In this document: one piece after another, positions 38,613 through 64,000 of the stretch | How the letters are laid out: each line of letters begins with the position of its first letter | Position numbering within the stretch: the stretch's first letter is position 1 | From: Bythopirellula sp. | GTDB lineage: Bacteria; Planctomycetota; Planctomycetia; Pirellulales; Lacipirellulaceae | Assembly (NCBI GenBank): GCA_028285205.1 | Contig: JANQQA010000058.1 | Span: 1 to 64,000, forward strand | Reading direction: 5' to 3' | Length of the DNA stretch: 64,000 bases | Translations under genes and position numbers: made by a program | The notes under the pieces: generated by a model | Database searches by the model: none | Seen by the model: only the letters and a program-made list of their open reading frames with translations | What the model was told of the DNA's origin: nothing

Positions 38613-40334
38613 ATGTCCTCAAGTTGTTGTGTAAGTCGGGTGATTCCTTACCTTGTCTTGGTTGCGACGGTGGTCGGGTGTGCAGCGCGACTGCACGCGG
38701 CTGAGACATGCGTCGTTGCCGCCGTTCAACCCGTTGCCGTCGATGCGGGAACTGCGGCATTCGAGCGAGGCGGCAATGCCGTCGACGCCGCGATCGCGAC
38801 CGCGCTAACGCTCGGGGTCGTCGACAACCACAACTCAGGTTTGGGCGGTGGCTGTTTTATCTTGATCCGTCGCCCGGATGGATCACTGGTAGCTATCGAT
38901 GGCCGAGAAAAGGCACCCGCCGCTGCGACGCGCGACATGTATTTGCGCGACGGTAAAGCACAGGCGGAGCTGAGCACCACTGGTCCACTTGCCGTTGGGG
39001 TTCCCGGCGCACTGGCCGCTTACGCGCGGGCGCTGGAAGTGTGCGGGAAGCGTTCGTTGAGTGATCTGCTGCTCCCCGCGGCAGAGGTTGCGGCAGAGGG
39101 CTTTGCAGTCGACGAAGTGTACGCACGCAAGTTGGCGTCGAAAGTCAAACAACTGAGCCGATTCACTGGCAGTCGCAACGCTCTGCTGAAAACCGATGGT
39201 ACGGCTTATCAAGCGGGCGAAATCCTTCAGCAGCCAGATCTTGCGAATACCTATCGGCAGATTGCCATACACGGCCCCGACTGGTTCTATCGAGGAGAGT
39301 TTGCTCAGTCCGTCGGCGAGTGGATGCGCGAGCACGGAGGAATTCTGACCGCCGCCGATTTCGCGGCATACGAGGCAATCGAGCGTGAGCCCATCGTAAC
39401 CAACTACCGAGACTACAAAATCGTCGGATTTCCGCCACCCAGTTCAGGGGGCGTGCATGTTGCGCAGATCCTTTCGATGTTGCAGCGGTTCGCGTTGGCC
39501 GAGGAGTACAGAGAGGACCCGACGACTGGGCTGCACTTGATGATCGAAGCGATGAAGCTCGCCTTCGCCGATCGGGCCTACTGGTTGGGGGATGCCGACT
39601 TCGCCAAAGTGCCGCGCGGACTAGTTGACGCCTCTTACTGCAAATCGCTCGCGGATCGGATCCACCGTGATAAGGCGATCGAGGTGCACGCGCACGGGAC
39701 TCCGCCGCGCGCAGAAGAAGCATTGTTTGGCAAGCACACGACGCATATCGCGACGGCAGACACCAACGGCTATTGGGTGGCAATCACCGCAACGGTCAAC
39801 ACAGCGTTCGGGTCTAAGGTCATCGTCCCCGGGACGGGGGTCGTCCTGAACAACGAAATGGACGATTTTTCAAGTCAGCCCGGTGTGCCGAATGCGTTTG
39901 GATTAATCGGTGCTGAGAACAATGCGATCGCCCCGAGCAAACGGCCACTTTCGAGCATGAGCCCGACCATTGTGCTCGACGCCGACGACCAGCCCGTGAT
40001 GACTGTCGGTGCCGCAGGGGGGCCGAAGATTATCACTCAGGTCGTGCAAGCGATAGTTCGTCACCTCGACTTCAATCAAGCAATTGAAGATGCCGTCGCG
40101 GCTCCGCGGGTGCATCATCAGTGGCGGCCAAACCATGTGTCGCTGGAGGGTTCTCTACCACAAGAGTGCCAGGATGGTTTGAAGGCGCTGGGGCACGAAC
40201 TTAACGTACTGCCAAATCGATCCAGCGGCGTAACACAAGCGATCGCTGTCGACGGGGAAGGTAAACTAATCGGCGTGCACGATCCACGGGTGCCCGGAAA
40301 AGTTGGCACGGTCGTGTTAGAGGCGGTCGAATAG
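38613..40334 (+). CDS. ggt: Gamma-glutamyltransferase (peptidase family T3), secreted
   Basis: VVAAVQPVAVDAGTAAFERGGNAVDAAIATALTLGVVDNHNSGLGGGCFILIR; autoprocessing/catalytic region GKHTTHIATADTNGYWVAITATVN. Confidence 0.95.
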   Translation: MSSSCCVSRVIPYLVLVATVVGCAARLHAAETCVVAAVQPVAVDAGTAAFERGGNAVDAAIATALTLGVVDNHNSGLGGGCFILIRRPDGSLVAIDGREKAPAAATRDMYLRDGKAQAELSTTGPLAVGVPGALAAYARALEVCGKRSLSDLLLPAAEVAAEGFAVDEVYARKLASKVKQLSRFTGSRNALLKTDGTAYQAGEILQQPDLANTYRQIAIHGPDWFYRGEFAQSVGEWMREHGGILTAADFAAYEAIEREPIVTNYRDYKIVGFPPPSSGGVHVAQILSMLQRFALAEEYREDPTTGLHLMIEAMKLAFADRAYWLGDADFAKVPRGLVDASYCKSLADRIHRDKAIEVHAHGTPPRAEEALFGKHTTHIATADTNGYWVAITATVNTAFGSKVIVPGTGVVLNNEMDDFSSQPGVPNAFGLIGAENNAIAPSKRPLSSMSPTIVLDADDQPVMTVGAAGGPKIITQVVQAIVRHLDFNQAIEDAVAAPRVHHQWRPNHVSLEGSLPQECQDGLKALGHELNVLPNRSSGVTQAIAVDGEGKLIGVHDPRVPGKVGTVVLEAVE

Positions 40335-40341
40335 ACACACG

Positions 40342-41595
40342 CTAATTGCCCTGTAGCCGCTGGGCAACCTGCTCAGTCTGTTTCATCGCACGGAGCAGAT
40401 TCTGCCCAAGCACTTTCTTAATGTCCGCGCCGCTGTAGCCTCGATCCAGCAAGGCTTGTGTAATGAGCGGATAGCTGCTGACATCTTCGAGTTGCTCGGG
40501 CAGGATGGATACACCGTCGTAATCGGAACCAATGCCGACGTGGTCGATGCCAGCAATTGTTGCGATATGCTCGATGTGATCGATCAGGTCGTGGATCGTG
40601 CCGCGAGGCATCGGATTGGCACGCCGCCATCGTCGGACAATCGCGTCAATCTTGTCCTTGTCGTCTAGCAGCTTTTCTTGCTCGCGACGGAGTGCGAAGC
40701 TCTGAGCGTAGTTGTCCGCTGCCGCAGGGACGACAAACCCGGAGAAAAAGTTGACCATGACAACGCCATCGTTCTCGGCGACTTTTTTCAGCACGTCGTC
40801 TGGGACGTTTCGCGGATGATCAGCTACCGCTCGGGCGGAGGAATGTGAGAAAATGATCGGCGCTTCCGTGATGCGTAGCGCGTGCTTCATCGTATCTGGC
40901 GAAACATGAGAGAGGTCGACCATCATGCCGAGCCGGTTCATTTCCCGTATCACGTCTTCCCCGAAAGCGGTCAACCCGCCATGACGGGGTTCGTCAGTGG
41001 CTGAGTCCGCCCAATCGAGCGTATCGGAATGCGTTAGTGTCATGTACCGCGCGCCCAGCTTGTACAATTGGCGGAGGACGTTGAGTGAGTTTTCGATGCA
41101 GTGTCCACCCTCAACGCCAATGAGCGACGCGATTTTGCCGGACGCGTGCGCGCGGACGATGTCATCACTTGTCAAAGCTCGCTCGAACGTATCGGGATAA
41201 CGCTCGATCATCGCTCGGACCATTTCGATCTGTTCCAACGTGGCCGACAGCGCTGTGCCGTCGTAGGCCGTACTCGCTGGCACGTAGACCGACCAAAATT
41301 GGGCACCTAGCCCGCCCTCGCGCAGTCGAGGGATGTCGGTATGCATCGATTCTTGTCGCACGGCGATGTCCAACTTGTCGAAGGACAGCGAGCCCTTGGA
41401 TCGCAGTTCCCAAGGTAGATCGTTGTGTCCGTCAATGACGATCGCATCTTGGTGAATTCGCCGCGCTTCTTCACTCACCACGACAGGGGGACGCTCGTTA
41501 GTGAATGCCACATTGGTTGGGGCCGCCACAAAGAACAGCATCAGCCAGATAAAGGTCTGCAGTGACCTCGAAGTTCCATCGTCAAAGGCTTTCAT
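40342..41595 (-). CDS. Membrane dipeptidase (peptidase M19, renal dipeptidase family)
   Basis: AIVIDGHNDLPWELRSKG, MTLTHSDTLDWADS, MVDLSHVSPDTMKHAL, IDHVGIGSDYDGVSILPEQLEDVSSYPLITQALLDRGYSGADIKKVLGQNLLR. ATG at 41595 overlaps the upstream TGA (ATGA). Confidence 0.93.
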   Translation of the reverse strand: MKAFDDGTSRSLQTFIWLMLFFVAAPTNVAFTNERPPVVVSEEARRIHQDAIVIDGHNDLPWELRSKGSLSFDKLDIAVRQESMHTDIPRLREGGLGAQFWSVYVPASTAYDGTALSATLEQIEMVRAMIERYPDTFERALTSDDIVRAHASGKIASLIGVEGGHCIENSLNVLRQLYKLGARYMTLTHSDTLDWADSATDEPRHGGLTAFGEDVIREMNRLGMMVDLSHVSPDTMKHALRITEAPIIFSHSSARAVADHPRNVPDDVLKKVAENDGVVMVNFFSGFVVPAAADNYAQSFALRREQEKLLDDKDKIDAIVRRWRRANPMPRGTIHDLIDHIEHIATIAGIDHVGIGSDYDGVSILPEQLEDVSSYPLITQALLDRGYSGADIKKVLGQNLLRAMKQTEQVAQRLQGN

Positions 41596-43634
41596 TCCGT
41601 CACGCCCAGTTGCTGCCATGCCCATCGATAAAGGTTGCGAGAATCTGCATAGCGTGCATCCGTCGAACTCGAACCGAGTACCACCACCAAGAGTGACTGC
41701 TCTTCCCTAGTGCCGTGCGAAACCAGGCACGAGCCCGCTGCTCTTGTGGTTCCCGTTTTCACGCCACTATATCCCTCGGTGCGAAGCAGCCGATTCGTGT
41801 TTCGCCAGACGAGGTTGCGTTGGTAGCCGCCTGGACCCTCGACGGTCACGCCATGTTGCACGGTGTTCACAATCGTGCGAAAGATCTCATGTCGCATCGC
41901 CCGATAGGTCAGCTTGAGCAGATCGCGCGGACTGGTTTTGTGATTCGGAGCGGTCAGGCCGTTGGGATTCTCGAAACTTGACTCCTTCATCCCAAGTTCC
42001 TGCGCCGTGCTGTTCATGGCGGCGATGAACTGGTCGTAGCTGTTTCCCGCCGCCTCATCGGGGCTCAAGCGGGCGCCAAAATGTTCGGCGAACGCGACCG
42101 AAGCGTCATTCCCTGACGGCAACAACAGACCGTAAAGCAATTCGCCAACCGAGATTTGTTCCCCAGCACGAACTCCAGCAGTCGAGCCGATCGTATCGTC
42201 GGCGCGCTGCGAAAAGATCAGCTTCTCGTCCAATACTGCAGGGTCCTTGTCTGCGAGGCTCGTGACGAGATAGGCCGTCATGATCTTTGTCGTGCTTGCC
42301 ATATCACGCGGCTCGTCCTCGTTGTGGCCCCAGAGCAGCTTGCCAGTGTCGGCATCGGCAATGGCCCAAGCTTCACAGGTAACGAATGGCGCACCCGTCA
42401 GGGGATCAGCGGCGCGTTTTTCGATCTTCTGCGCGTTGACTTCCTCCGGCAAAGGCTGATCTGGGTCTTTAGTGACCAGCGGCCCTAGGGCTTTCCATGT
42501 TTGCTCATCGACTTTGCCGGTTTCGGATAGATTTTGAGCACGCTGAAACTCCCGGACGGCACCGTCGGTCTGCGGTCCAAAATCTCCGTCGACGCCGATG
42601 TCTAGAGAGGGCATTCGTGCGTTGAGTGTGCGTTGCAACGCTTCGACTAGATGACCGCTGGACCCGATTGCCAATAAGTTCGGATTGCTCGGTTCCTTCG
42701 TGTCAGCGTCTGAATTGAAGTGGTCGTAAGCGATGCGAGCGATCTTGCCGCAGAGAACCTGCGCCGTGTTATTCTGCGACCAGCTGCGATCTTCGTTGTT
42801 TGCCGTGAGCACGCAAATCACAATGGGTCCGTTGGGGCTGTCGATGATGCCAGCGTTCGTGCGCGCGGCAGAGACCGCGCCCGATTTGTGCGCGAACTTC
42901 GTGCCGGTCGGCAGGTCGCGGGCGCACATCGAGTCGTCCGCACACTTGTAGAGGTGTTCAAGCATCTGCTCACATGCCTTTGGACTCACAAGTTCACCGT
43001 TGTGCAGGGCAGTGAACAGAGCAACCATTTCTGCGGCAGTCGTACTACCAAGTCCGAATTTCTTACTGCGTTCTGGAAAAACGGATGTGGAACGCAGTGA
43101 CACTTTGGAGTGCAGTTTGGTGTTAGGGAAGCCGAGGCGTTCCATCATCTCTGCCGTCGTGGGCAAGCCAATACGATCTGCAACAAGATTCGTGGCTGTG
43201 TTCTCAGAGTGCACGATCATGAGTCGAATGGCATCGTACAAGGAAAACGTCGTGCCAGGCGAGAAGTCCACCGTCAGCGGGCCATAGTCATGAATTCGAT
43301 CGGCTTCAGTAAGAGTGACCGTTTGGTCGAGGCTTAGCTTGCCATCGGCAATCGCCTGATATGTCGCGATCATCACGGGGAACTTAATCAGGCTGGCCGT
43401 CGGCATCGCTTCGTCCGCGCGGTGCGTAAAGGACTCGCCCGACGGCAGATGAGCGATCGCAACGCCGACATCACCTTTGTGGGCGTCGATAAGTGGTTTT
43501 AGCTGGCGTGCTAATTCGTCTGCAGCTCGGCATGTTGTGTTCTGTTGCATCACGAGCAGAAGCAGCAGCATCAAGCCGAGCGCACGTGAGGAATTCATAG
43601 ATCTGGCTAGTGAAAAACTGATCATGTTGAGCAC
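41592..43634 (-). CDS. Double serine hydrolase: class-A beta-lactamase-like domain + PG_binding_1 domain + D-Ala-D-Ala carboxypeptidase (S11)
   Basis: Domain 1: TASLIKFP (SxxK), SENTATN, KSGA; middle LVEALQRTLNARMPSLDIGVDGDFGPQTDGAVREFQRAQNL; S11: MASTTKIMTAYLV (SxxK), SGNDASVAFAEHFG (SxN), SGVKTGTTRAAG (KTG). Confidence 0.9.
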   Translation of the reverse strand: MLNMISFSLARSMNSSRALGLMLLLLLVMQQNTTCRAADELARQLKPLIDAHKGDVGVAIAHLPSGESFTHRADEAMPTASLIKFPVMIATYQAIADGKLSLDQTVTLTEADRIHDYGPLTVDFSPGTTFSLYDAIRLMIVHSENTATNLVADRIGLPTTAEMMERLGFPNTKLHSKVSLRSTSVFPERSKKFGLGSTTAAEMVALFTALHNGELVSPKACEQMLEHLYKCADDSMCARDLPTGTKFAHKSGAVSAARTNAGIIDSPNGPIVICVLTANNEDRSWSQNNTAQVLCGKIARIAYDHFNSDADTKEPSNPNLLAIGSSGHLVEALQRTLNARMPSLDIGVDGDFGPQTDGAVREFQRAQNLSETGKVDEQTWKALGPLVTKDPDQPLPEEVNAQKIEKRAADPLTGAPFVTCEAWAIADADTGKLLWGHNEDEPRDMASTTKIMTAYLVTSLADKDPAVLDEKLIFSQRADDTIGSTAGVRAGEQISVGELLYGLLLPSGNDASVAFAEHFGARLSPDEAAGNSYDQFIAAMNSTAQELGMKESSFENPNGLTAPNHKTSPRDLLKLTYRAMRHEIFRTIVNTVQHGVTVEGPGGYQRNLVWRNTNRLLRTEGYSGVKTGTTRAAGSCLVSHGTREEQSLLVVVLGSSSTDARYADSRNLYRWAWQQLGVTE

Positions 43635-43648
43635 CCCTTCGTTGTGAG

Positions 43649-44677
43649 TCAGGACGAAGTAAGCTGAACACCGCTGCCGTTGGCTTGCGGATAACGGCAG
43701 ACGCCGCGTTCCACCACTACACCTGTGGCAATGTCCGCGGCGAGCAGTGCGGCGCCATCCATATCGACGTAGTCGAGCAGCGGCAACAACTGGGCGATTG
43801 CCGAGATGCCCACGGTCGATTCCGTCATGCAGCCGACCATCACCTTCATACCAAGTTCACGCGCGGTATCGATCATCCGCCGCGCCGGTGTCAGACCGCC
43901 GCATTTCACTAGCTTGATGTTCACGCCGTCAAAGTAGCCATGGCAGGCCGCCACATCCGATTCATGAATGCAGCTCTCGTCTGCAATCAGCGGTAGCGCG
44001 GAGTGACGCAGCAGCTCTTTCTGGCCATCGCGATTCTCTGCCGGCAATGGCTGCTCCAGGAATTCAACATTGAGTTCCTTGAGTGCGTGCGAATTTTCGA
44101 TTGCTTCCGAAACATCCCATCCACAGTTGGCATCCACGCGAAATGTCGCATCCGTGTGTTGGCGAAGCGCACGAATGATTTCCAGATCGTGCGAAGTGCC
44201 AAGTTTGATCTTGTACACGGGCCAATCGGGAACTTCCTTCAACTTGGCGACCATCACGTCGATTTCGTCGATACCGATCGTATAGTTCGACGGGGGCGTC
44301 CGCGAATTATCGAGTCCCCAAAGTTGGTAGACCGGCTGGCCCTGCTGCTTGCCCCACAGATCATGAGCCGCCTGGTCGAGTGCACAGAGGGCAAACGGAC
44401 AGTCGCGCAATGACTCTGCTGTGGCTGACCAGAGCTGCTGGGGGTCGATCTGGTCTTGCGCTTCGACGAGAGATCGTACCGACTCTAGGGCGTTCCGCAT
44501 CCTCTCGAGCGTCATGCCGTAGTAGGTGTTGGTGGTCGCTTCTCCGTATCCCGAATGCACGCCATCACTGAGTTCGACAATCAGTGTCGGTTGCACATCG
44601 ACGGACTCACGAGAGATAGTGAATGTATGACGAAGCGGAAGATCGAATGTGTGAATCGAGAGTTTCACTTCAGGCAC
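43649..44677 (-). CDS. Enolase-superfamily dipeptide epimerase (Ala-D/L-Glu epimerase-like; alternatively DgcA-type N-acetyl-D-Glu racemase)
   Basis: FTISRESVDVQPTLIVELSDGVHSGYGEATTNTYYG; YKIKLG (KxK-type); FRVDANCGWDVSEAI; EQPLP; LIADESC; NIKLVKCGGLTPARRMI. Confidence 0.9.
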   Translation of the reverse strand: MPEVKLSIHTFDLPLRHTFTISRESVDVQPTLIVELSDGVHSGYGEATTNTYYGMTLERMRNALESVRSLVEAQDQIDPQQLWSATAESLRDCPFALCALDQAAHDLWGKQQGQPVYQLWGLDNSRTPPSNYTIGIDEIDVMVAKLKEVPDWPVYKIKLGTSHDLEIIRALRQHTDATFRVDANCGWDVSEAIENSHALKELNVEFLEQPLPAENRDGQKELLRHSALPLIADESCIHESDVAACHGYFDGVNIKLVKCGGLTPARRMIDTARELGMKVMVGCMTESTVGISAIAQLLPLLDYVDMDGAALLAADIATGVVVERGVCRYPQANGSGVQLTSS

Positions 44678-44735: not shown

Positions 44736-45812
44736 CTAGGTGGTCGCCAATACGGGCGACATTGCTTGGATTGCCTGGATTAATTCGTCGGGGCCGTGGC
44801 GGACGACATCGCAGATAGGCAAACCAAGCTCACTGCGTACTCTTTCTCGTTCCAGTTCAGCCTCTTCGGCGGTGACAAAGGTGCTGTTCATCGCCACGCC
44901 AATCACTTTTGATGGCCCCATCAAGTTGGCCATGGTTTCATACACTTCAATCAGTTTCGGCAAGGGCTGCAGCGGGATGTGCTCCATTCCATTGACATTC
45001 TGCCGACCGACCTCATAACACATGATCATGCCGTGCGGCATGCACCCATGCAGCAAACTCAACGTCACACCAGAGTAGCGCGGATGGGCGAGGCTCCCCT
45101 GCCCTTCCACGACCAAGACTTCGTGGTGCTGATTCGCAAGAATCAACTTTTCTACTGCGCCGCTCACGAAGTCTGCGACCACGCAATCGATAGGAGCACC
45201 ATCCCCTTCGATCATGATGCCCGTCTGACCGGTCGCGACGAATTTCGAGTCGACTCCTGATTTCTGCAGCGCGAGCGACAGCTCCAGCGCGACCAACATC
45301 TTCCCCAGGCTGCAATCTTGTCCGACGGTGTGGATCCGCAAGCACTGTTCGCGAATGTTCTCGCGATTTGCAACGTCGCGTTCATTGTTTTTACGCACGT
45401 CGATGAGTTGAACACCCTTCTCCGCAGCTACCCTGCTAAACTCTGCGTCTGCCGAGAGGAAATCGTGAAGGCCAGAGATGACGTTCATGCCGCGATCGAT
45501 GGCTTCCAGAATTACGCTGCGCCACGCACCCGGAATTCTGCCGCCGGGTGGTGCGATGCCGAGCATCAAAGCGTTGGCATCGGGTGCGGCCGCCAAGGCA
45601 CCGACGACTGGTGTTTCGCCACCAACACCAAGCAATTGATTCGCTGTGCTGCCCACCTGAGTCGTGTCGAGCAAAGCAACGACTTCTGACGGTTTGTAGC
45701 GAAGCACCGACGCTGCCGTCTTCGCAGTAATTGGTTCGCTGTGCCCTTCGGTTAAGATGATCAAGCGACGTTGAGTTGAAGGTTGTGTCTGGTCTGGAGC
45801 TTGATCATTCAT
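44736..45812 (-). CDS. DUF1611 family P-loop protein (DgcN-like candidate)
   Basis: HTVGQDCSLGKMLVALELSLALQ, FVATGQTGIMIEGDGAPIDCVVADFVSGAVE, VVEGQGSLAHPRYSGVTLSLLHGCMP are DUF1611 hallmarks. Confidence 0.9.
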   Translation of the reverse strand: MNDQAPDQTQPSTQRRLIILTEGHSEPITAKTAASVLRYKPSEVVALLDTTQVGSTANQLLGVGGETPVVGALAAAPDANALMLGIAPPGGRIPGAWRSVILEAIDRGMNVISGLHDFLSADAEFSRVAAEKGVQLIDVRKNNERDVANRENIREQCLRIHTVGQDCSLGKMLVALELSLALQKSGVDSKFVATGQTGIMIEGDGAPIDCVVADFVSGAVEKLILANQHHEVLVVEGQGSLAHPRYSGVTLSLLHGCMPHGMIMCYEVGRQNVNGMEHIPLQPLPKLIEVYETMANLMGPSKVIGVAMNSTFVTAEEAELERERVRSELGLPICDVVRHGPDELIQAIQAMSPVLATT

Positions 45813-46058
45813 GCGCGTATTCGCGTGTCGCGTTCTCTGATTGAAGGGTAGGTAGTTTCAAACAGCTGCTTAACTCAAGTTTAATAGCCGGTACTATTCT
45901 GGAAAAGAGTTGGCGACTGATAAACGCGGGAGTTTCCGCGTACGGACTTGTGAGCTAGGTAGATCCTCTGCAACTTAACACCTCGTTGCTCGACGGCGAA
46001 CTGAATCTCGGCTTGTGTCGCGAAATCGCGCAAGGGTGTCTTGATTACGCGCATCGAT

Positions 46059-47621
46059 TCAGCTGCTCATTCCCAACAATAGATTCGCGAGTGCTCTCTG
46101 CGACGCGGGAACATCGCTATAAGTGCAAAGAGTTTGTGTTGCGCCATCAAATCGATGTAGTGCTTCCGGGGTCCCTAGTGAAGCTAGGACGCAAGGCTGA
46201 CGGTTAATCAATTGTTCGACAAAAAGTTGTTGCTCAGCGAGCAAGCCGAAAGCATGCCAAGCCGCAGGTTTGACGATGATAGCAACCAACACTTGCTCCA
46301 CGTGCTCAGCAGCAGCGAACGCACGTTGAAAATCGGCTGGCAAACTATTGGGGCCAAGTTCATGGTACTCGCAGTTATTCGTGAACTGATTCAGCGCTGC
46401 GCCCAGTGGCTGTTGAGGCGGATCGAGATGCGATTCGTAGGGGCGAACCAAGATTGCACAAGTCTTTACGGACGGATCAAACTTATCTGGTTCATGCTGC
46501 GGTCCGATAACGCGAATGGATTCGCTAGCAACGCGATGCACCAAGGCCTCCGTCTTCTCACTCAGTGAGTCGATGCCGCCGGGCGGTTGCTTCTCGAACA
46601 TCTGCTGCTTGAGGTTCCAGATTCGCGTAAGAGCTTCATCGACACGCTGCGAAGGGAGTCTACCGTCTTCCACGGCTTGCTCTAGTGACGACAGGGTCTC
46701 ATTAGGCTCTGCCACATCGAGCAGGATGTCGATTCCCGACAACAATGCGCGAAGGGCAAGTTCTCCTTCTCCGTCGCATTGCGATTTGACTCCCTCCATT
46801 AGCAAACTGTCGCTGACGACTGCCCCTTTGAAACCGAGTTCCGTGCGCAGCAGATCGATAAGGATTGGTTCCGAAAGCGTCGCCGGCGCGCCAGTATCGT
46901 CCCAAGCGGGATAGCGGACATGCGCGCTCATAATCAATGGGACACCAGCGTCGATGGCCGCGCGGAAGGAAACTAATTCGCATTGTGATAGAGCACTTTG
47001 GTCGCCCCTGACCGTCGGCAACGCATGATGCGAATCCTCGTGCGTGTTGCCATGACCAGGGAAGTGCTTCGCTGTACTGAGCAGACCACCGGCTTGACAA
47101 CCGCGGACAAAAGCGCGAACGAGCTGAGCGACACGTGACGGATCGCTGCCGAACGCGCGGGTAGCGATGATCGGATTCCGTGGGTCAACATTCACGTCCG
47201 CCACGGGCGCAAAGTTGATATGCACGCCGCAACGGCGGGATTCGATGGCCGTGAGCTGCGCGAAGTCTTCAACCGCTTGCTCGGCGTCTTCACCCAGTGC
47301 GTCAAACGCCATTGCGTGCGGAAACAACTCGGGCCCATGTAGCTGCTGCCCGACTCCGCGCTCGTTGTCGGCGGAAATGAGCATTGGCATATCGGACCGA
47401 GACTGCAGTCGCTCGATCGTTGCTGGAGCCGTGTCGTGCCGACCGTTGAACAGAATCAAGCCACCAATCGGGACCTCTGAGAGTAATTGCGTGATCCGAT
47501 CGGCATCCCGGTCGACGGTTCGCACCGGTGGTAGATTCGAACCGATGCGTACAAACATCAATTGCGCGATCTTCTCTCGCAGCGAGGTGGGAGGCACCAG
47601 CGGTTGTGTCGTCGTGTTCAC
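46059..47621 (-). CDS. nagZ: Beta-N-acetylhexosaminidase NagZ-like (GH3), no obvious signal peptide
   Basis: KIAQLMFVRIGSNLP; FAPVADVNVDPRNPIIATRAFGSDP; STAKHFPGHGNTHEDSHHALP; AVVSDSLLMEGV. GTG start overlaps the upstream TGA. Confidence 0.9.
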   Translation of the reverse strand: MNTTTQPLVPPTSLREKIAQLMFVRIGSNLPPVRTVDRDADRITQLLSEVPIGGLILFNGRHDTAPATIERLQSRSDMPMLISADNERGVGQQLHGPELFPHAMAFDALGEDAEQAVEDFAQLTAIESRRCGVHINFAPVADVNVDPRNPIIATRAFGSDPSRVAQLVRAFVRGCQAGGLLSTAKHFPGHGNTHEDSHHALPTVRGDQSALSQCELVSFRAAIDAGVPLIMSAHVRYPAWDDTGAPATLSEPILIDLLRTELGFKGAVVSDSLLMEGVKSQCDGEGELALRALLSGIDILLDVAEPNETLSSLEQAVEDGRLPSQRVDEALTRIWNLKQQMFEKQPPGGIDSLSEKTEALVHRVASESIRVIGPQHEPDKFDPSVKTCAILVRPYESHLDPPQQPLGAALNQFTNNCEYHELGPNSLPADFQRAFAAAEHVEQVLVAIIVKPAAWHAFGLLAEQQLFVEQLINRQPCVLASLGTPEALHRFDGATQTLCTYSDVPASQRALANLLLGMSS

Positions 47622-55546: not shown

Positions 55547-56533
55547 CTAGTCGCGAGGCATCAACCTGCGACACGCCAGCCTTACGCAGCCCAGGACAGG
55601 CTCGCGCACCATCTCCAGCGAAGACGGTTCGACTTGTGTAGCTGTCAACTGCTCACGCAGTTTTCCTGCAGCAAGATCACTGCCACATAGAACGCCGCCG
55701 GCGAGTGCGATGGGCAGCGGCTCTTGGATTGCAAGTCGGTTTTTCAACGTTGTGATGTGATCGACCCAATGACTGACAGCGCGATCAAGAATCGAAACCG
55801 CAACTTTGTCGCCTCGTTGGGCGGTGTCGCAGACCAATCGGGCGAGGTCAGCAATCCTCGAACGGATTTCGCCTTGGTCGCCCATAGCGTAGAGAATCTG
55901 GCGTGGATCGCTGACAGCAAACTGACTCAAGACCTGATCAGCGAGTGCCGTATAGGGAGCGCGCCCGTCAGAGGCTTGAGCTATTGCGCGCAGCGCTTGC
56001 TGACCGAGCCAGAATGCGCTGCCTTCGTCGCCAAACCAATACCCCCAGCCGCCGACGACCCCCGCTTCGCCAGCTTTGTTCAAACCGTATGCAACGGCAC
56101 CAGTTCCCGCAATCAACGCGACACCCCAACAATCGGGTGTGCCTGCTTCCAGAACCGCGTGCCCATCGTGGATGACTTGCACGTCTGCCAATCGCAGGCG
56201 ATTCTCAGCAAAGTTTAGAATTCGCTTGCGACCTACTTCATTGCCTGAACCTGCCAAGGCAAAGACTCCGGCCGCGAGACGATCAATCGAGATACCCGAG
56301 TCCGCGCAGGCCAGTTCAATGGCTTCAGCTAAATTGTTCAGCGCGCCGTCCACGCCGATCGCGACCTGGTTGGACGATCCCGCCTTGCCGCGTCCGACAA
56401 TCTGAGGATCTCCCTGCTCGTCGACGACGCCAACCCACGCGAGGGTTTTGGTGCCACCGCCATCGACGCCTAGTGCGTAAGTTTCGCGTTCAAAATTGGG
56501 AGATGCAGAACCACCGGAAGAGACGGATGTCAT
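55547..56533 (-). CDS. BadF/BadG/BcrA/BcrD-type amino-sugar kinase (GlcNAc/MurNAc kinase, MurK/NAGK-like)
   Basis: YALGVDGGGTKTLAWVGVVDEQG; GRGKAGSSNQVAIG; GVALIAGTGAVAYGLNKAGEAGVVGGWGYWFGDEGSAFWLGQQALRAI. ATGA overlap with murQ. Confidence 0.92.
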   Translation of the reverse strand: MTSVSSGGSASPNFERETYALGVDGGGTKTLAWVGVVDEQGDPQIVGRGKAGSSNQVAIGVDGALNNLAEAIELACADSGISIDRLAAGVFALAGSGNEVGRKRILNFAENRLRLADVQVIHDGHAVLEAGTPDCWGVALIAGTGAVAYGLNKAGEAGVVGGWGYWFGDEGSAFWLGQQALRAIAQASDGRAPYTALADQVLSQFAVSDPRQILYAMGDQGEIRSRIADLARLVCDTAQRGDKVAVSILDRAVSHWVDHITTLKNRLAIQEPLPIALAGGVLCGSDLAAGKLREQLTATQVEPSSLEMVREPVLGCVRLACRRLMPRD

Positions 56534-57453
56534 TTCTTACCGTTAGAGAACGCGGGATTCTCAAGTGCTTGGCGGAGGTGCCCGGTCGCCGAGTCGAGGC
56601 GCTTGCGTGCTACTTCAGGCGAAAGACCTAGCGTCTGTGCGACAATAGCGGTCTTTAGTTCGCCACCGCATTGTTCAAGTAGTTTCACAGCTGCTTCAGG
56701 AGAAAGATCAGTCACTTGGCAAAGTATTCGTTTGGTTCGCTCGGTGAGCTTCGTATTGGTTGCCTGCAGGTCGACCATGAGATTTCCGTAGGTCTTCCCG
56801 ACTAGCACCATGGCTCCGGTAGTGAGCATGTTGAGCACCATTTTCGTGGCCGTGCCTGCCTTCATTCGCGTGGAGCCACTGACGACTTCAGGGCCGACAA
56901 CTGGTGCGATCGAAATGTCAGCACGAGCGGTGATGGCTCCGTCTCGGTTGCAACAGACCCCGATCGCGAACGCACCCTGGCTGCGGGCGTAGTCCAGTCC
57001 TCCGAGGACGTACGGAGTGCGACCGCTGGTCGCGATGCCAACGACGACGTCCTGACTGCACAAGTCAATGTTACGAAGGTCTTCTTTGGCGAGTTCCAGG
57101 GAGTCCTCGGCGCCCTCAACTGCCTTGAGCATCGCCCCTGGTCCGCCGGCAATGATGCCGACTACTTGCGACGGATCGGAGTTGAACGTGGGCGGACACT
57201 CGGCAGCGTCAAGTATTCCCAGCCGGCCCGAAGTACCGGCACCGATGTAGATCAATCTCCCGCCGTGACTCAGCCGATGCGCGATCACCTCGACGGATTT
57301 GGCAATCGAATCGGATTCCAAACCAACCGCTGCAGCGACACCGGCGTCTTCCGAGTTGATTAACTCGACGATCTCGCGTGGTGAAAGTTCATCTAAGTTT
57401 TCAGAAGCAGGATTCCTGGCTTCTGTGGTGAGTTTATCCAGCATAAGTGTCAT
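56530..57453 (-). CDS. murQ: N-acetylmuramic acid 6-phosphate etherase
   Basis: LTTEARNPASENLDELSPREIVELINSED; GRLIYIGAGTSGRLGILDAAECPPTFNSDPSQVVGIIAGG; VVGPEVVSGSTRMKAGTATKMVLNMLTTGAMVLVGKTYGNLMVDLQATNTKL. Confidence 0.97.
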   Translation of the reverse strand: MTLMLDKLTTEARNPASENLDELSPREIVELINSEDAGVAAAVGLESDSIAKSVEVIAHRLSHGGRLIYIGAGTSGRLGILDAAECPPTFNSDPSQVVGIIAGGPGAMLKAVEGAEDSLELAKEDLRNIDLCSQDVVVGIATSGRTPYVLGGLDYARSQGAFAIGVCCNRDGAITARADISIAPVVGPEVVSGSTRMKAGTATKMVLNMLTTGAMVLVGKTYGNLMVDLQATNTKLTERTKRILCQVTDLSPEAAVKLLEQCGGELKTAIVAQTLGLSPEVARKRLDSATGHLRQALENPAFSNGKK

Positions 57454-57708
57454 TCTAATCTGAGCATCCGGATCGAAACAGCTTTGATGCGCGAAAAAGA
57501 TATTTAGCTGCGCTCGCACCGCTTCCGTCTGAGATTTGGCTAAGATAGTGTGAATGCAACCAAGTCGTGACAACGTTCTTGTCGATCAATAGGACTTGGT
57601 AATTCGCCTGCGGCTAACGTGGTCCCACAGTTTCATTTTCGTCGAGTGGAGACTGCTTGCTTTTGCAGCTTATCGAAGCGGTAGAATCGTACAGGGTGTT
57701 CTGATCAG

Positions 57709-59181
57709 TTGAACTTGTCACTCCATTCCATTGACCTGGCTATAGTGGTCATCTATTTGGGCTGCGTGCTGGCGTTCGGGGTTTGGGTAGGTCGCGGTCA
57801 GCAAAGCACGGTCGACTACTTTCTGGGCGGACGATCTTTGCCATGGTGGGCCGTGCTACTGTCGATTGTGGCAACCGAGACCAGCACGGCGACTTTTCTT
57901 AGTGTCCCTGGAATCGCATTTGCTGCGGAAGGTGATTTTCGTTTTTTGCAAATCACATTCGGGTACATTGTCGGTCGCGCGCTGGTTGCCTGGATTTTCT
58001 TGCCGCTCTATTTTCGCGGGGAGCCTTTCACATGCTATGAGGTACTTCAGCGCCGTTTTGGAATCGCCTCACGCCGAGTGACGTCGGTACTTTTCTTGAT
58101 CACGCGCAATGTTAGCGATGCATTGCGACTTTTTCTGACTGCGATAGCGCTACAGCAGGCTATTGGATTGGAACTCTGGGTGTGTGTTGTCGTGGTGGGA
58201 TTGGTTACGATTGCCTACACTTACTTCGGCGGAGTGAAGTCGGTTGTCTGGAACGATTGCATTCAGTTTGCGATCTACATGGTTGGCGCAGCCGCAATCC
58301 TCTGGGTGATCATCTCACTACTGCCCGAAGGCTTAACACAACTCATTGCATACGGCCAACAACACGAGAAGTTCCGATTATTCGATTTTGATCTGGCAAT
58401 CACCAAAACGACAATGACCTTCTGGGCAGGACTGGTCGGCGGAGTTTTTCTGACCACCGCGACCCATGGTACTGATCAGCTCATGGTGCAGCGTTATCTG
58501 GTTGCGAATAGCCAGCGGGGTGCGACGATAGCCGTACTATTGAGTGGAGTGGTCGTTTGCTTTCAGTTTGCAGTATTCCTGTTCATCGGCGTCGGTTTAT
58601 CGTGCTTCTACGACGTCTTTCCGCCTGAAATCGCATTTACTGCAACCGACAACGATCGCGTATTGGCGCATTTTGTAGTTAATCACTTGAGTACGGGGCT
58701 TGTCGGACTCACACTTGCGGCAGTGATCGCTGCCGCAATGTCGACGCTTTCCAGTTCGCTCAATTCTTCGGCAACGACCCTGATCAATGATATCTATTTA
58801 CCAATGACCAAGCGTGAATTGAGTCCTAAACAACAGCTGACTTTCAGCCGCATTGCCTCCGCGGGTTTCGGTATTCTGCAAATTCTGATCGCAATCATCA
58901 GCTACCAACTCGGCGCAAACACCAGCACGGCCAAGAGTGTGCTAAAGATTGCAGGGTTTGCGCTGGGGCCGATGCTAGGGTTGTACTTCCTCGCTGTGTT
59001 CGCTCAACAGGTTAAGCAGCGAGCAGCTTTGCTCGGGTTCGGAACTGGCACAGCGGCATTGTCGTATCTCGCACTTTGTACTTCGCTCTCCTGGCCTTGG
59101 TACGCAGGAGCGGGAGCCGCATTGACGTTTGCCAGTGGACTCGCCTTTTCCACGTTCGAGGCTGCACCTTCCGATAGATGA
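57709..59181 (+). CDS. Sodium:solute symporter (SSS family)
   Basis: VDYFLGGRSLPWWAVLLSIVATETSTATFLSVPG; GGVKSVVWNDCIQ; ATHGTDQLMVQRYLV; AAAMSTLSSSLNSSATTLINDIY. TTG start; ATGA at the 3' end overlaps the next ORF. Confidence 0.95.
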   Translation: MNLSLHSIDLAIVVIYLGCVLAFGVWVGRGQQSTVDYFLGGRSLPWWAVLLSIVATETSTATFLSVPGIAFAAEGDFRFLQITFGYIVGRALVAWIFLPLYFRGEPFTCYEVLQRRFGIASRRVTSVLFLITRNVSDALRLFLTAIALQQAIGLELWVCVVVVGLVTIAYTYFGGVKSVVWNDCIQFAIYMVGAAAILWVIISLLPEGLTQLIAYGQQHEKFRLFDFDLAITKTTMTFWAGLVGGVFLTTATHGTDQLMVQRYLVANSQRGATIAVLLSGVVVCFQFAVFLFIGVGLSCFYDVFPPEIAFTATDNDRVLAHFVVNHLSTGLVGLTLAAVIAAAMSTLSSSLNSSATTLINDIYLPMTKRELSPKQQLTFSRIASAGFGILQILIAIISYQLGANTSTAKSVLKIAGFALGPMLGLYFLAVFAQQVKQRAALLGFGTGTAALSYLALCTSLSWPWYAGAGAALTFASGLAFSTFEAAPSDR

Positions 59182-61550
59182 TCCAAGTGACTTACATGAA
59201 AACTCCAACAAACCGAAATTTGAGTAGCGCGTTAATGGTACGTCTGTTGATAACGGTGGCTGTTTCTTTCGCTGCTTGCCGTGGCTTGCTGGCCGAGCCT
59301 TTGGCACGTTGCATGCCGGAGGTAGTCGGCTTCGATTCTGCTCATCTGGATCGCATCGACGAGATCGTCGCGGAGCAGATTGAGCGGAAGAAGCTTCCCG
59401 GCTGTGTGGTGATGGTCGGACGCCAAGGAAAGATCGCGTTTGCACGCGCTTACGGGCATCGACGCCTAATGCCGTCGCCCGAGAAAATGACTCTCGATAC
59501 GGTATTCGACATGGCTTCGATCACCAAACCGACCGCGACGGCTACCAGCATCATGCTACTGGTGGAGCGTGGCAAAGTGCGCATCCGTGACCGGGTCGTC
59601 GAGTACATCCCGGAGTTCGCACCGAATGGCAAAGACAAGATCACCATTGAAGACCTGTTGACGCACCGTGGCGGTCTGTTGCCCGACAACGCGCTGGCGG
59701 ATTATCAGCAGGGGACCGACGAGGCTTGGCGACGGATTTGGAATCTCGATCTTCGCAGTCCCGTTGGTGAGAAGTTCATTTACACGGACGTTGGATTCTT
59801 GGTGCTCGGCGAAGTCGTTCGCCGCGTTAGCGGACAGGATGTCGCGGAGTTCGCCAAAGCGAATATCTACGCACCGCTCGGCATGAACGACACTGGCTAC
59901 TTGCCAGACGAAGCCCGTCGCGGTCGCGCCGCCACTACCGAGCAGCGAGACGGCGAGTGGCTACGCGGGGTCGTCCACGATCCGCGCGCGGCGCTGCTCG
60001 AGGGCGTTGCCGGCCATGCCGGGCTATTCTCAACGGCGGACGATATGGCAATCTATGCCAGCATGATGCTTGCGGGCGGGACAACTGGTGAAACGCAGAT
60101 ACTCAGTCCGCATACCATCGCAGAAATGACGCGTCCGCGCGACGTTGCTGGTCATCGGCGTGGCCTGGGGTGGGACATGCGTAGCAAGTATTCAAGCAAT
60201 CGCGGCGAACTGAACAGTACACGGGCATTCGGACACGGCGGATTCACGGGCACAGCGATGTGGATCGATCCCGACTTGGATCTGTTCGTCATCTTTCTCT
60301 CCAATCGCGTGCATCCCGATGGCAAAGGCAGTGTCAATCCGTTGGCAGGACGCATCGGAACCATCGCTGCTGCAGCATTACGCCTGAGCGATAATTCTGC
60401 AGGTGACGTCGAATCACCAGAAGTGCTTACCGGCATCGACGTGCTCCAGCGCGATGGTTTTCGGCAACTGGAAGGCCGAAGAGTGGGGCTGATCACCAAC
60501 CACACCGGACTGAATCGTCGAGGCGAGCGAACGGTTGATTTATTGCATCAAGCCACGAATGTCGATTTGGTTTCGCTGTTCAGTCCCGAGCATGGGCTGC
60601 AGGGGAAACTCGACCAGCCCAACATCGGCGACATGCGTGACGAGGTCACGGGCCTGCCGATCTATAGCCTCTACGGCGAAACACGGACGCCTAACGACGT
60701 GCATTTGCAGGACGTTGATACGCTTGTGTTCGACATTCAAGACATTGGCGCGCGGTTCTACACTTATCTCTCGACAATGGGTAACGCAATGGAGGCGGCT
60801 GCTGAACGTGGATTGCGTTTCGTCGTGCTCGACCGACCGAATCCAATCGGTGGCGAGTTGGTAGAAGGACCGGTCCGCGATGCGGAGGGTCGATCTTTCG
60901 TCGGGCACCATGACATTCCTGTGCGACACGGCATGACATTGGGCGAGTTAGCGATGATGATTCGGCATGATCGCGAACTGACTCTTGAACTCGATGTGAT
61001 CGAGGTCGAAAACTGGCGGCGAGCCGACTACTGGGATCGGACGGAGCTGACGTGGATCAACCCATCCCCCAACATGCGCAGTCTCGCGCAGGCCGTCCTT
61101 TATCCGGGCATCGGCCTTTTGGAAACGACAAACGTCTCCGTCGGTCGCGGAACAGATGCGCCGTTCGAACTATTTGGAGCGCCGTGGATTGATGGAAGAC
61201 AATTGGCTGAAGCGCTGAATCAATTGGCACTGCCGGGCGTTCGATTTATTCCGATCCGCTTCACACCTGACGCGAGCAAGTTCGCGAACGAACAGTGTCA
61301 GGGAGTGAACGTATCGGTTGTTGACCGACGTCGCTGTCGTCCGGTGGAGGTTGGGCTGCAAATCGCGGCGACGCTCCGAAAACTCTACCCAAACGACTGG
61401 GAAACGGCTCGCTTAAACCGCCTGCTGATTAGCAAGAAGGTGTTCGACGCGGTGGTCGACGGTCGAGATGCAAAATCACTGCACTCGCTATATCAGGACG
61501 ATCTGCAACGGTTCATGAAGCGACGAGCAAAGTTTTTGATCTATCCGTAG
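59178..61550 (+). CDS. Fusion of serine hydrolase (beta-lactamase/AmiE-like) and DUF1343/NamZ-like exo-beta-N-acetylmuramidase; start possibly 59196
   Basis: N-terminal half: MASITKPTATATSIMLLVERGKVRIRD (SxxK), HRGGLLPD, FIYTDVGFLVLGEVV. C-terminal half from ~60415: GIDVLQRDGFRQLEGRRVGLITNHTGLNRRGERTVDLLHQ...LFSPEHGLQGKLD...LDRPNPIGGELVEGPV...WINPSPNMRSLAQAVLYPGIGLLETTNVSVGRGTDAPFELFGAPWID. Confidence 0.93.
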   Translation: MIQVTYMKTPTNRNLSSALMVRLLITVAVSFAACRGLLAEPLARCMPEVVGFDSAHLDRIDEIVAEQIERKKLPGCVVMVGRQGKIAFARAYGHRRLMPSPEKMTLDTVFDMASITKPTATATSIMLLVERGKVRIRDRVVEYIPEFAPNGKDKITIEDLLTHRGGLLPDNALADYQQGTDEAWRRIWNLDLRSPVGEKFIYTDVGFLVLGEVVRRVSGQDVAEFAKANIYAPLGMNDTGYLPDEARRGRAATTEQRDGEWLRGVVHDPRAALLEGVAGHAGLFSTADDMAIYASMMLAGGTTGETQILSPHTIAEMTRPRDVAGHRRGLGWDMRSKYSSNRGELNSTRAFGHGGFTGTAMWIDPDLDLFVIFLSNRVHPDGKGSVNPLAGRIGTIAAAALRLSDNSAGDVESPEVLTGIDVLQRDGFRQLEGRRVGLITNHTGLNRRGERTVDLLHQATNVDLVSLFSPEHGLQGKLDQPNIGDMRDEVTGLPIYSLYGETRTPNDVHLQDVDTLVFDIQDIGARFYTYLSTMGNAMEAAAERGLRFVVLDRPNPIGGELVEGPVRDAEGRSFVGHHDIPVRHGMTLGELAMMIRHDRELTLELDVIEVENWRRADYWDRTELTWINPSPNMRSLAQAVLYPGIGLLETTNVSVGRGTDAPFELFGAPWIDGRQLAEALNQLALPGVRFIPIRFTPDASKFANEQCQGVNVSVVDRRRCRPVEVGLQIAATLRKLYPNDWETARLNRLLISKKVFDAVVDGRDAKSLHSLYQDDLQRFMKRRAKFLIYP

Positions 61551-61635: not shown

Positions 61636-62628
61636 CTACTTCGCTATCAGGTCCCGACGCGCGAATAGTCCGAAGGAACCTCCTGTGTGGATGTAGACGG
61701 GCAATCGCTCTGAAGGCTGATCCTGCAGTACCGCCAACATGCCGGTCATCCCCTTCGACGTGTAACTCGGGTCCAGCACGATGCCTTCCGCGCGACCGAG
61801 TAGGCGAATCGTCTCAACGGCTTCGGGATATGGAATTGCATAGCCATCGCCGATGAATCCGTCGATCAGGTCGATGGGTGTGGCCTCCGGATTTAAGTCG
61901 AGCGAAAACTGCTGGACAGTTGCGCGCTCAAGTTCTCTCAAGTACTTGTGAAAATACGCAACACTGTCGCTGACCGGGACGCCGAGCACCCGCCAATTGT
62001 CGCAGCCGAGCAGAGCTCGCCCGAGCATCAGCCCAACCTGGGTACCCCCCGAAGATGTCGCGCAGTAAATGTCGACAGGCGTCTCGCGCCCCAGCTGCTC
62101 GACTAACTCGGCGACGCAACGAATGTAGCCCCAACTACCAAAGGGGACGCTGGCGCCGACGGGAAAGAAGTACGGCGTGCGACCTGCACTGCGTTCCTCC
62201 TGCATCGCTTGCTCGACGATGTTGTCCAGTTCCGCTCGATAGACATCGGGGGCGTGATAGCTGACCTCGGCTCCGAACAGTTGATCCAGAAACAGATTGC
62301 CATCCCACTCGGGATCCGCATCTACGGAGCGTAGAATCATCCGCACACGAAGTCCCAGTCGCGCGCCAACCGCCGCGGTCGCACGACAATGGTTCGACTG
62401 AAACCCACCGTTCGTCACCAAAGTGTCAGCTCCCCGCGCGACTGCGTCGGCGACAACGTACTCCAACTTGCGGACCTTGTTACCGCTGATCTCCAGGCCG
62501 GTCATGTCATCGCGTTTGAGCAGCACGCGTTCGATTCCAACTTGCTTAGCGAGATTCTTCAACTCGACCGTCGGGGTTGGCAACTGAGCGAGTTCGAGAC
62601 GAGACGGTTCTTGCGGGTGAGTCTTCAT
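61636..62628 (-). CDS. PLP-dependent ACC deaminase / D-cysteine desulfhydrase family protein
   Basis: PTPTVELKNLAKQVGIERVLLKRDDMTGLEISGNKVRKLEYVVADAVARGADTLVTNGGFQSNHCRATAA. ATGA overlap with the upstream gene. Confidence 0.9.
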   Translation of the reverse strand: MKTHPQEPSRLELAQLPTPTVELKNLAKQVGIERVLLKRDDMTGLEISGNKVRKLEYVVADAVARGADTLVTNGGFQSNHCRATAAVGARLGLRVRMILRSVDADPEWDGNLFLDQLFGAEVSYHAPDVYRAELDNIVEQAMQEERSAGRTPYFFPVGASVPFGSWGYIRCVAELVEQLGRETPVDIYCATSSGGTQVGLMLGRALLGCDNWRVLGVPVSDSVAYFHKYLRELERATVQQFSLDLNPEATPIDLIDGFIGDGYAIPYPEAVETIRLLGRAEGIVLDPSYTSKGMTGMLAVLQDQPSERLPVYIHTGGSFGLFARRDLIAK

Positions 62629-63590
62629 CCAAGGTCCACAGGGTTGTTAAGGATTCGCAACGTATGATTGTCGGCATCCAATGCCGCTTCAACATTCAGC
62701 GGCAGCGTGGCGTTATCGCGGCAGTGGCCGGTGGGAAAATTTCGTAGAATGGGCACGTTCAAATCATTGAGATACGTGTCAAATATTTCATCGAGCGTAA
62801 GACTCGCCTCACCCGTTGGTGCATCGCAATCGGTGAATTGCCCGAGGATAACGCCCGATGCTTCGTCGAGCTTGCCGGCGAGTTTCAGTTGCGAGAGCAA
62901 TCGATCGACACGATACGGCTGCTCGCTGATGTCTTCCAGCAGCAAGAGGTTTCCCTTAGTGTTGACGTCGTATGGCGTCCCCATCACGGCGCCGACAAGG
63001 GCAAGGTTGCCACCGACAATCCGCCCTCGCGCTTGACCGCTAACCATTGTCTCAAGGTTTCCGCGTTCCTCTTCCGTGAGCGGAATATCGTACCCGTCGT
63101 TCTCATCGTAACTCTCAGCCAACAGTGCGCGCCAGTATACGCGTGCCGTTAAGTCGCTCATACCGTCTGCGACGCCAATCCCATCCTTCGGATGGGGACT
63201 ATGAAAAGTCACTAGTCCCGTCTGGTTGTGGAGAGCCGAGTGTAGTGCCGTCATGTCGCTGAAGCCGGCAAAGATCTTTGGGTTCTTCCGAATCACCTCG
63301 TAGTCAAGCAGATGGAGCAATCGCGTGACACCGGTTCCCCCACGCGCGGGAAAGACGGCGGTCACTTCTGGATCTGAGAAGGCTTTCATCATCTCACCGG
63401 CACGCGTCGCGTCGTCGCCGGCAAGGTAGCCATGCTCGCGATAGAGGTCGCCGTACGTCTTGATGCGGAAGTCCATCGCTTCGAGTCGTTCAATCGCCCG
63501 CTCGATTGGCTCGCGCGGAACAGGACTCGCAGGCACGACCAGTGCGATCGTATCCCCTCGACGCAACGCTCGCGGATAAATCGGGTCCAT
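62625..63590 (-). CDS. ldcA: LD-carboxypeptidase (peptidase S66), cytoplasmic
   Basis: ALRRGDTIALVVPASPVPREPIERAIERLEAMDF; AVFPARGGTGVTRLLHLLDYEVIRKNPKIFAGFSDMTALHSAL; LLLLEDISEQPYRVDRLLSQLKLAG. Confidence 0.95.
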   Translation of the reverse strand: MDPIYPRALRRGDTIALVVPASPVPREPIERAIERLEAMDFRIKTYGDLYREHGYLAGDDATRAGEMMKAFSDPEVTAVFPARGGTGVTRLLHLLDYEVIRKNPKIFAGFSDMTALHSALHNQTGLVTFHSPHPKDGIGVADGMSDLTARVYWRALLAESYDENDGYDIPLTEEERGNLETMVSGQARGRIVGGNLALVGAVMGTPYDVNTKGNLLLLEDISEQPYRVDRLLSQLKLAGKLDEASGVILGQFTDCDAPTGEASLTLDEIFDTYLNDLNVPILRNFPTGHCRDNATLPLNVEAALDADNHTLRILNNPVDLG

Positions 63591-63999: not shown

Positions 64000-64000
64000 C

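Follow-up and report, generated by a model that had tools for sequence, protein, structure and literature searches.

A probable peptidoglycan-salvage regulon with a XylR-like regulator in Lacipirellulaceae planctomycetes

Tannerella forsythia carries ampG, ybbC (NamZ) and murTKQ in one transcription unit under GppX (PMC5388701), and takes up disaccharides via AmpG and N-acetylmuramic acid (MurNAc) via MurT (PMC7670621). In Bacillus subtilis, the cluster murQ-murR-murP-amiE-nagZ-ybbC(namZ) is found (PMC5061867). Anhydro-muropeptide recycling in Escherichia coli employs AmpG, NagZ, AmpD, AnmK, LdcA and MurQ, the genes of which are scattered. Genes for murein-peptide use include ykfABCD of B. subtilis and mpaA-ycjG of E. 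coli. In the DgcN-DgcA D-glutamate pathway, a DUF1611 protein adjoins an enolase-superfamily racemase (PMC10845958, PMC12363236). Our literature search found no wall-salvage system described for planctomycetes. Here, we describe an island of putative peptidoglycan-salvage genes in the planctomycete Bythopirellula sp. (assembly of 7.9 Mb in 373 contigs, 93% complete). The stretch analyzed, hereafter the window, comprises positions 1-64,000 of an 88-kb contig (C29).

We consider the island to be a peptidoglycan-salvage regulon of the Lacipirellulaceae, run by a XylR-like regulator encoded at its centre, and place the probability of this reading at roughly 0.78. It would thus be a real, co-regulated and extended variant of known peptidoglycan-salvage clusters. 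The reading is carried by gene content, conservation, clustering and a shared operator, all of which were observed. In this family, nearly all genes for dismantling wall sugars and peptides lie in one stretch, apparently under one shared switch. Planctomycete cell walls have long been disputed, and the island supplies a testable gene set, regulator and operator in culturable Bythopirellula, Adhaeretor and Botrimarina.

Protein families were assigned by hidden Markov model (HMM) searches against Pfam and NCBIfam with curated cut-offs, and nearest solved structures were found by PDB search. The HMM searches confirmed each family name given in an initial annotation made from the sequence, and the open reading frames (ORFs) agree. 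The borders proposed there (38613-63590) proved too narrow, as the unit runs from an Amidase_3 gene at 35370 to an NhaC-like gene past the window. On the right side, the minus-strand run goes on beyond the window (C29:63595-68498) with SpmB, SpmA, M14 and NhaC-like genes. The genes are as follows.

35370-38321, minus strand: secreted Golvesin_C/Amidase_3/fn3/dockerin protein, probable amidase (Pfam); adjoins Ggt or the core in several relatives
38613-40334, plus strand: gamma-glutamyltransferase Ggt, secreted (PF01019; TIGR00066 above cut-off, 551 bits)
40342-41625, minus strand: M19 dipeptidase, secreted (PF01244; nearest PDB entry 3id7)
41592-43634, minus strand: class-A-like/PG_binding_1/S11 D-Ala-D-Ala carboxypeptidase fusion, secreted (PF13354, PF01471, PF00768)
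43649-44677, minus strand: enolase-superfamily epimerase, either L-Ala-D/L-Glu epimerase or N-acetyl-D-Glu racemase DgcA (DgcA model 230 bits, cut-off 400; nearest PDB entry 3iji)
44736-45812, minus strand: DUF1611/DgcN-like protein (PF07755, PF17396; DgcN model NF041892 272 bits, cut-off 480; PDB 2obn, 7xrj)
46059-47621, minus strand: GH3 beta-N-acetylglucosaminidase NagZ, no signal peptide by eye, motif KHFPGHGNTHEDSH (PF00933; NF003740 168.8 bits, cut-off 207; PDB)
47618-48943, minus strand: AmpG-family major facilitator superfamily (MFS) permease (best family TIGR00901, E=2.6e-48, below cut-off)
48943-50475, minus strand: GHL10 glycosidase (DigH/YddW-like), secreted (PF02638, 220.6 bits)
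50688-51512, minus strand: PEP-CTERM protein 1 (weak PEP-CTERM motif)
51835-52962, minus strand: PEP-CTERM protein 2 (weak PEP-CTERM motif; copies in relatives near XylR)
53098-54258, minus strand: XylR-like AraC-family sugar-sensing regulator (PF13377, PF12833, PF22177; 57-89% identity beside AnmK in relatives)
54419-55531, plus strand: anhydro-MurNAc kinase AnmK (PF03702; NF007141 404 bits, cut-off 352; PDB 3cqy, E=3e-59)
55547-56533, minus strand: BadF-type kinase for MurNAc/N-acetylglucosamine (GlcNAc), MurK-like (PF01869; nearest PDB chain 8zo3)
56530-57453, minus strand: MurNAc-6-P etherase MurQ (TIGR00274 388.7 bits, cut-off 302; start moved from 57573)
57709-59181, plus strand: sodium/solute symporter (SSS) in a MurT-like position (PF00474; TIGR00813 above cut-off)
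59178-61550, plus strand: secreted AmiE/PBP4B-like serine hydrolase fused to NamZ (Beta-lactamase, NamZ_N and NamZ_C domains: PF00144, PF07075, PF20732; PDB)
61636-62628, minus strand: pyridoxal phosphate (PLP) enzyme, D-cysteine desulfhydrase/1-aminocyclopropane-1-carboxylate (ACC) deaminase family (PF00291; TIGR01275 271 bits, cut-off 289)
62625-63590, minus strand: S66 LD-carboxypeptidase LdcA (PF02016, PF17676; below NCBIfam cut-off)
63595-64000 in the window, to contig position 64152, minus strand: SpmB (PF07670)
contig 64149-64982, minus strand: SpmA, beyond the window (HMM scan)
contig 65021-66832, minus strand: M14 carboxypeptidase, beyond the window (PF00246)
contig 66747-68498, minus strand: NhaC-like antiporter, beyond the window (PF03553)

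AnmK, MurQ, Ggt and SSS score above the curated NCBIfam cut-offs. The MurQ family match opens at residue 44 of the longer ORF, which indicates that the ORF start at 57573 was placed too far upstream; translation probably begins near 57453, leaving 57454-57708 as the MurQ/SSS intergenic region. Strand switches divide the island into at least five units, so it is not one polycistron.

The island resembles the T. forsythia system in bringing together, apparently under one regulator, an AmpG-type permease, a NamZ homologue, a sodium-type MurNAc transporter, a BadF-type kinase and MurQ. The adjacency of the last three is found here as in Tannerella and is kept in most NamZ-bearing family members; the T. 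forsythia operon region also has a SpoIID/LytB gene. Unlike T. forsythia, the planctomycete island adds AnmK, NagZ, GHL10, the AmiE-NamZ fusion and a whole peptide branch, and it consists of several divergent units with an AraC/XylR-type operator, whereas T. forsythia has one polycistron under GppX. With the B. subtilis cluster it shares an AmiE-type serine hydrolase, NagZ, NamZ and MurQ, but it lacks MurR, its AmiE and NamZ domains are fused, and AnmK and AmpG are present. No phosphotransferase system (PTS) gene was found among the island proteins scanned, SSS being there instead, and NagZ (KHFPGHG..DSH motif) appears to be cytoplasmic; for these two reasons only part of the Bacillus route is represented. 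The AmpG-family permease, NagZ, AnmK, LdcA and MurQ are families in common with E. coli recycling, although in the planctomycete they are clustered, with no clear cytoplasmic AmpD in the island and with direct MurNAc uptake added. Like ykfABCD and mpaA-ycjG, the island encodes an S66 peptidase, an enzyme of the L-Ala-D/L-Glu epimerase type and an M14 enzyme that matches MpaA weakly; unlike them, it adds the DUF1611/DgcN-like protein and SpmAB, and its M14 domain is fused to an amidohydrolase-like C-terminal part. The DUF1611 protein adjoins an enolase-superfamily enzyme as in the DgcN-DgcA pathway, but the island pair scores below both family cut-offs and is tied to wall salvage.

It had been proposed in the initial annotation that one lineage merged three entry routes, those of Gram-negative anhydro-muropeptide recycling, Bacillus and Tannerella. 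This stands in that the glycan and peptide branches are both represented; the merger is, however, a family-level trait and its Bacillus route is partial. Merging of routes is also not new in itself, since T. forsythia already joins AmpG, NamZ and murTKQ. What is new is the inclusion of AnmK and NagZ, the fusion of AmiE to NamZ, a complete peptide branch, the regulator together with its operator, the spread of the set through a family of Planctomycetota and the link to SpmAB. Sugar and peptide salvage joined in one regulon would extend the Tannerella case.

Distribution was assessed in 60 relatives, from genera including Lacipirellula, Bythopirellula, Botrimarina, Adhaeretor and Aeoliella (relative G004 belongs to the genus of the source genome). 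NamZ was found in 29, AnmK in 34, MurQ above cut-off in 29, DUF1611 in 33, AmpG in 30, LdcA in 29 and SpmA in 21. Nearly all carriers of the salvage set are Lacipirellulaceae, and most larger genomes of the family have it. It is missing from small genomes of the source's genus (G001, G003, G009, G011, G013) and mostly from the other Pirellulales families sampled, with exceptions such as G043 and G050. A core of XylR-AnmK, BadF-MurQ and SSS-AmiE-NamZ is retained in most family members with NamZ; in G031, G036 and G019, the AmiE domain by itself adjoins SSS and NamZ is located elsewhere. The satellites (GHL10-AmpG-NagZ, DUF1611-epimerase-S11-M19, LdcA-SpmB-SpmA-M14 and Ggt-Amidase_3) shift position and vary in order, mostly staying near the core. 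The neighbourhood is thus conserved in relatives, and the lack of synteny that the initial annotation had named as grounds for giving up its proposal does not arise. In seven near-complete genomes, which are related and hence not fully independent samples, 72 of 123 gene pairs lay within the 40-kb limit, compared with a mean of 2.5 and a maximum of 9 in 2000 random-placement simulations.

Two further features were noted in the relatives. Bythopirellula genomes carry two or three AnmK copies (G006:C1:5416634, 5425145 and 197679; G004:C6), one of them next to its own XylR-like gene. AmpG homologues with an apparent in-frame insertion of ~170-200 residues near residue 170 occur in G002, G010, G012, G015, G017, G020, G023, G027, G028, G032 and G035; the AmpG of the window is without it.

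A candidate operator, the 21-bp direct repeat TGCGC[AG]A-N14-TGCGC, lies ahead of most island units. These include the two PEP-CTERM genes, which the initial annotation had left unexplained. The TGCGC element first emerged when the intergenic regions XylR|AnmK and MurQ|SSS were compared across 25 genomes. When 1.44 Mb of island DNA was scanned for TGCGC[AG]A followed by TGCGC at spacings of 8 to 60, spacing 21 gave 48 repeats and no other spacing gave more than 4. Operators of AraC-type regulators usually take the form of a 21-bp direct repeat. A position weight matrix (PWM) was built from 22 training sites, all from relatives with the source genome excluded; the best shuffled sequences score 9-16 bits. 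Applied to further regions, the PWM gave 21 sites across 424 kb of island DNA, compared with one across 300 kb of random DNA; both sets came from the same genomes, many of which had given training sites, but from other regions. The top eight PWM matches on the source contig are all intergenic. The principal sites are listed below.

57483-57518, plus strand: strongest operator-like repeat, TGCGCGAAAAAGATATTTAGCTGCGC, MurQ/SSS intergenic region (32.3 bits)
46023-46058, minus strand: operator-like repeat upstream of DUF1611-epimerase-S11-M19 (23.3 bits)
53065-53100, minus strand: operator-like repeat upstream of PEP-CTERM 2 (20.2 bits)
24489-24524, plus strand: operator-like repeat between AmpD-like amidase and glycoside-3-dehydrogenase-like genes (17.9 bits)
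51594-51629, minus strand: weak operator-like repeat upstream of PEP-CTERM 1/GHL10-AmpG-NagZ (10.5 bits, inside the shuffle range)
54331-54352, plus strand: conserved half-site TGCGCAATTTCGAGAGG between regulator and AnmK (intergenic comparison of the 25 genomes)

Further matches lie upstream of another PEP-CTERM gene (16.8 bits), a DUF1559 gene (16.5 bits) and the NhaC-M14-SpmA-SpmB-LdcA-PLP run (13.5 bits, inside the best-shuffle range). With an operator shared across units, the gene set looks like one regulon, and the XylR-like regulator is predicted to act at the 21-bp repeat. Two candidate sites were rejected: a full operator at XylR|AnmK of the source genome, where the full-site PWM score is near zero and only the half-site is conserved, and a site-like repeat within the M14 ORF (contig 65237; 9.1 bits, inside the shuffle range).

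Outside the salvage genes, a twin-arginine translocation (TAT)-signal Gfo/Idh/MocA protein resembling glycoside 3-dehydrogenase (24616-26097) is encoded behind site 24489-24524. Its G004 relative is 74% identical and adjoins AnmK; given this neighbour and the operator-like site, the gene may join the regulon. DUF1559 and PEP-CTERM genes at 26966-28105, 28395-29282 and 31410-32981 have upstream sites at 28211 and 29484 (clear) and 33349 (weak, 8.5 bits), a hint at co-regulation of surface proteins and wall salvage.

All catalytic steps and transport directions of the pathway proposed here, like the choice between own and foreign wall as its source, are inferred. Stem peptides would be stripped by the Amidase_3 protein and the AmiE-like domain, either in the periplasm or extracellularly, where GHL10 would also cut the denuded glycan and the fused NamZ domain would take off terminal MurNAc. 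MurNAc would be imported via the SSS symporter and phosphorylated by the BadF (MurK-like) kinase, while GlcNAc-(anhydro)MurNAc would enter via the AmpG-like permease, NagZ freeing GlcNAc and AnmK yielding MurNAc-6-P. Both streams would converge on MurQ, giving GlcNAc-6-P and lactate. The MurNAc branch (SSS, BadF kinase, MurQ, and AnmK for the anhydro sugar) is the best-supported part of the scheme. The solved chain nearest to the BadF kinase, 8zo3, is a MurNAc/GlcNAc kinase, that nearest to AnmK is an AnmK, and those nearest to NagZ are GH3 N-acetylglucosaminidases. GlcNAc-6-P would leave via NagA/NagB-like enzymes encoded elsewhere. In the source genome, a NagB-like gene adjoins a NagA-like gene (G000:C197:3699-5364), neither reaching its curated cut-off, and a further NagB above cut-off lies on C315; this fits the earlier prediction that this exit lies outside the island. 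A NagB domain inside an open frame of 640-700 residues is also almost universal in Pirellulales genomes (e.g., G000:C324:28984). Stem peptides would be trimmed outside the cytoplasm by the S11 fusion, Ggt and M19 and inside it by LdcA and the M14 enzyme, and L-Ala-D-Glu or D-Glu would exit via the epimerase and the DgcN-like protein; for moving peptides or amino acids across the membrane, SpmAB and the NhaC-like protein are the leading candidates.

The same enzymes could instead recycle the cell's own wall during growth and division, with no foraging on foreign wall. AmpG, NagZ, AnmK and LdcA are classic recycling enzymes, several island proteins appear to be cytoplasmic, and planctomycetes possess peptidoglycan (PMC4432595). 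The many secreted hydrolases (Amidase_3/dockerin, GHL10, AmiE-NamZ, M19, Ggt and S11 fusion) and the inducible-type sugar regulator nevertheless better suit an external substrate. MurQ and DUF1611 are catabolic, and the set is missing, as described above, in most other Pirellulales sampled and in small genomes of the source's genus. We therefore regard recycling of the own wall alone as rather unlikely.

Two or more independent units might also have been brought together by the family's clustering of catabolic genes, a MurNAc/anhydroMurNAc core beside peptide or sugar satellites, with no single regulon. Bythopirellula G006 and G004 do keep the core (XylR-AnmK, BadF-MurQ, SSS-NamZ) alone, with satellites elsewhere and mostly without strong operators. 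This explanation is nonetheless quite unlikely, as satellites rejoin the core in several genera and the operator precedes peptide units (DUF1611 in the source genome, G026 and G024; more weakly, LdcA-SpmAB in the source genome) as well as, in other genomes, GHL10-AmpG units.

Several findings weigh against one salvage regulon. For AmpG, NagZ, LdcA, the DgcN-like DUF1611 protein and the epimerase, the best-matching family is the right one but the score falls under the NCBIfam cut-off; such scores are not surprising in a distant phylum, and the substrates of these proteins are putative. Ggt, M19 and the PLP enzyme could each have many other roles. The island yielded no clear cytoplasmic amidase of the AmpD type; on the contig, to which the search was confined, the sole AmpD-like gene seen (23360-24463) begins with a signal-like N-terminus and reaches 50 bits against a cut-off of 143. 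Strong operators are lacking at Ggt and XylR|AnmK in the source genome and at the AmpG and DUF1611 satellites of Bythopirellula G006. Genome-wide, the exact repeat has 12 matches, four of them on this 88-kb contig, against 9 for a reversed control, so the bare repeat cannot define the regulon genome-wide; only PWM and location together are informative. It is highly improbable that the genes serve separate pathways (glutathione, general dipeptides, other amino sugars) and owe the peptidoglycan reading to family names: Ggt, M19, PLP and SSS are broad families and several assignments fall below cut-offs, but AnmK, MurQ and NamZ, for which we know of no other common substrates, pass theirs, the same neighbours are kept across the family and the operator links the units.

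The AmpD-like gene itself belongs to a pair at 22085-24463, an HGSNAT-like acyltransferase followed by the secreted amidase, just ahead of the operator at 24489.

Within the salvage regulon that we favor, the peptide branch is less certain than the MurNAc branch. The epimerase is nearest to 3iji, which we take to be an L-Ala-D-Glu epimerase complex, whereas its best NCBIfam model is DgcA and that of its DUF1611 partner is DgcN. Alignment with 3iji and 3rit showed conserved KxK and K catalytic lysines, D-E-D metal ligands and a D-x-D motif; the last is common to the structures compared and hence does not discriminate DgcA from L-Ala-D/L-Glu epimerase. The pair suggests a D-glutamate or L-Ala-D-Glu exit, and either would end in L-glutamate. 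The DUF1611/DgcN family thereby becomes a lead in the use of wall-derived D-amino acids. The structure nearest to M19, 3id7, is presumably a dipeptidase cleaving L-Xaa-D-Xaa. The M14 protein (contig 65021-66832) has the murein tripeptide amidase MpaA as its sole NCBIfam match (weak, 19 bits), and its amidohydrolase-like C-terminal part is degenerate.

SpmA and SpmB are endospore core-dehydration proteins, the activity of which is a long-standing question in spore biology. The SpmB gene at the window edge, unexplained in the initial annotation, belongs to an SpmAB pair that accompanies LdcA across relatives: in 19 of the 21 family genomes that have SpmA, an S66 LdcA gene is located no more than 5 kb from it. 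Outside Lacipirellulaceae, SpmA occurs in only 4 of about 390 Planctomycetota genomes, and at two of these four loci SpmAB adjoins S66 and S13 carboxypeptidase genes, one of them also having an AmiE-like gene, NamZ and amidases. The gene orders dacB-spmA-spmB in B. subtilis (PMC8745062) and iadA-yjiG-yjiH, the E. coli counterpart, likewise place a Gate-family pair near peptidases for wall-type or iso-peptide bonds; the planctomycete pair differs in having S66 LdcA and M14 as partners, within a salvage island and in a non-sporulating phylum. SpmAB is thus tied to peptidases in four separate settings. This gene context suggests that the pair helps to move wall peptides, and SpmAB is probably part of peptide salvage. 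More specifically, SpmA and SpmB may transport or exchange stem peptides, or the amino acids derived from them, across the membrane, partnering S66, M14, S11 and S13 peptidases in a role outside sporulation; we offer this tentatively, at somewhat worse than even odds, as a lead on the older spore-biology question. A PDB search with SpmA and SpmB profiles matched no chain to either, and AlphaFold models from four-sequence alignments (predicted local distance difference test, pLDDT, 41-44) were too poor for use.

One distant planctomycete locus (L189; G399:C13:46001-64000) holds SpmAB, S13, S66, Amidase_3, AmiE-like, NamZ and SpoIID genes together, and its Amidase_3/dockerin protein is 64% identical to that of window gene 35370-38321. 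In Alphaproteobacteria (Hyphomicrobiales, loci L080-L086), a gene with ~30% identity to part of the AmiE-NamZ fusion is found close to AnmK; the two may have been paired independently.

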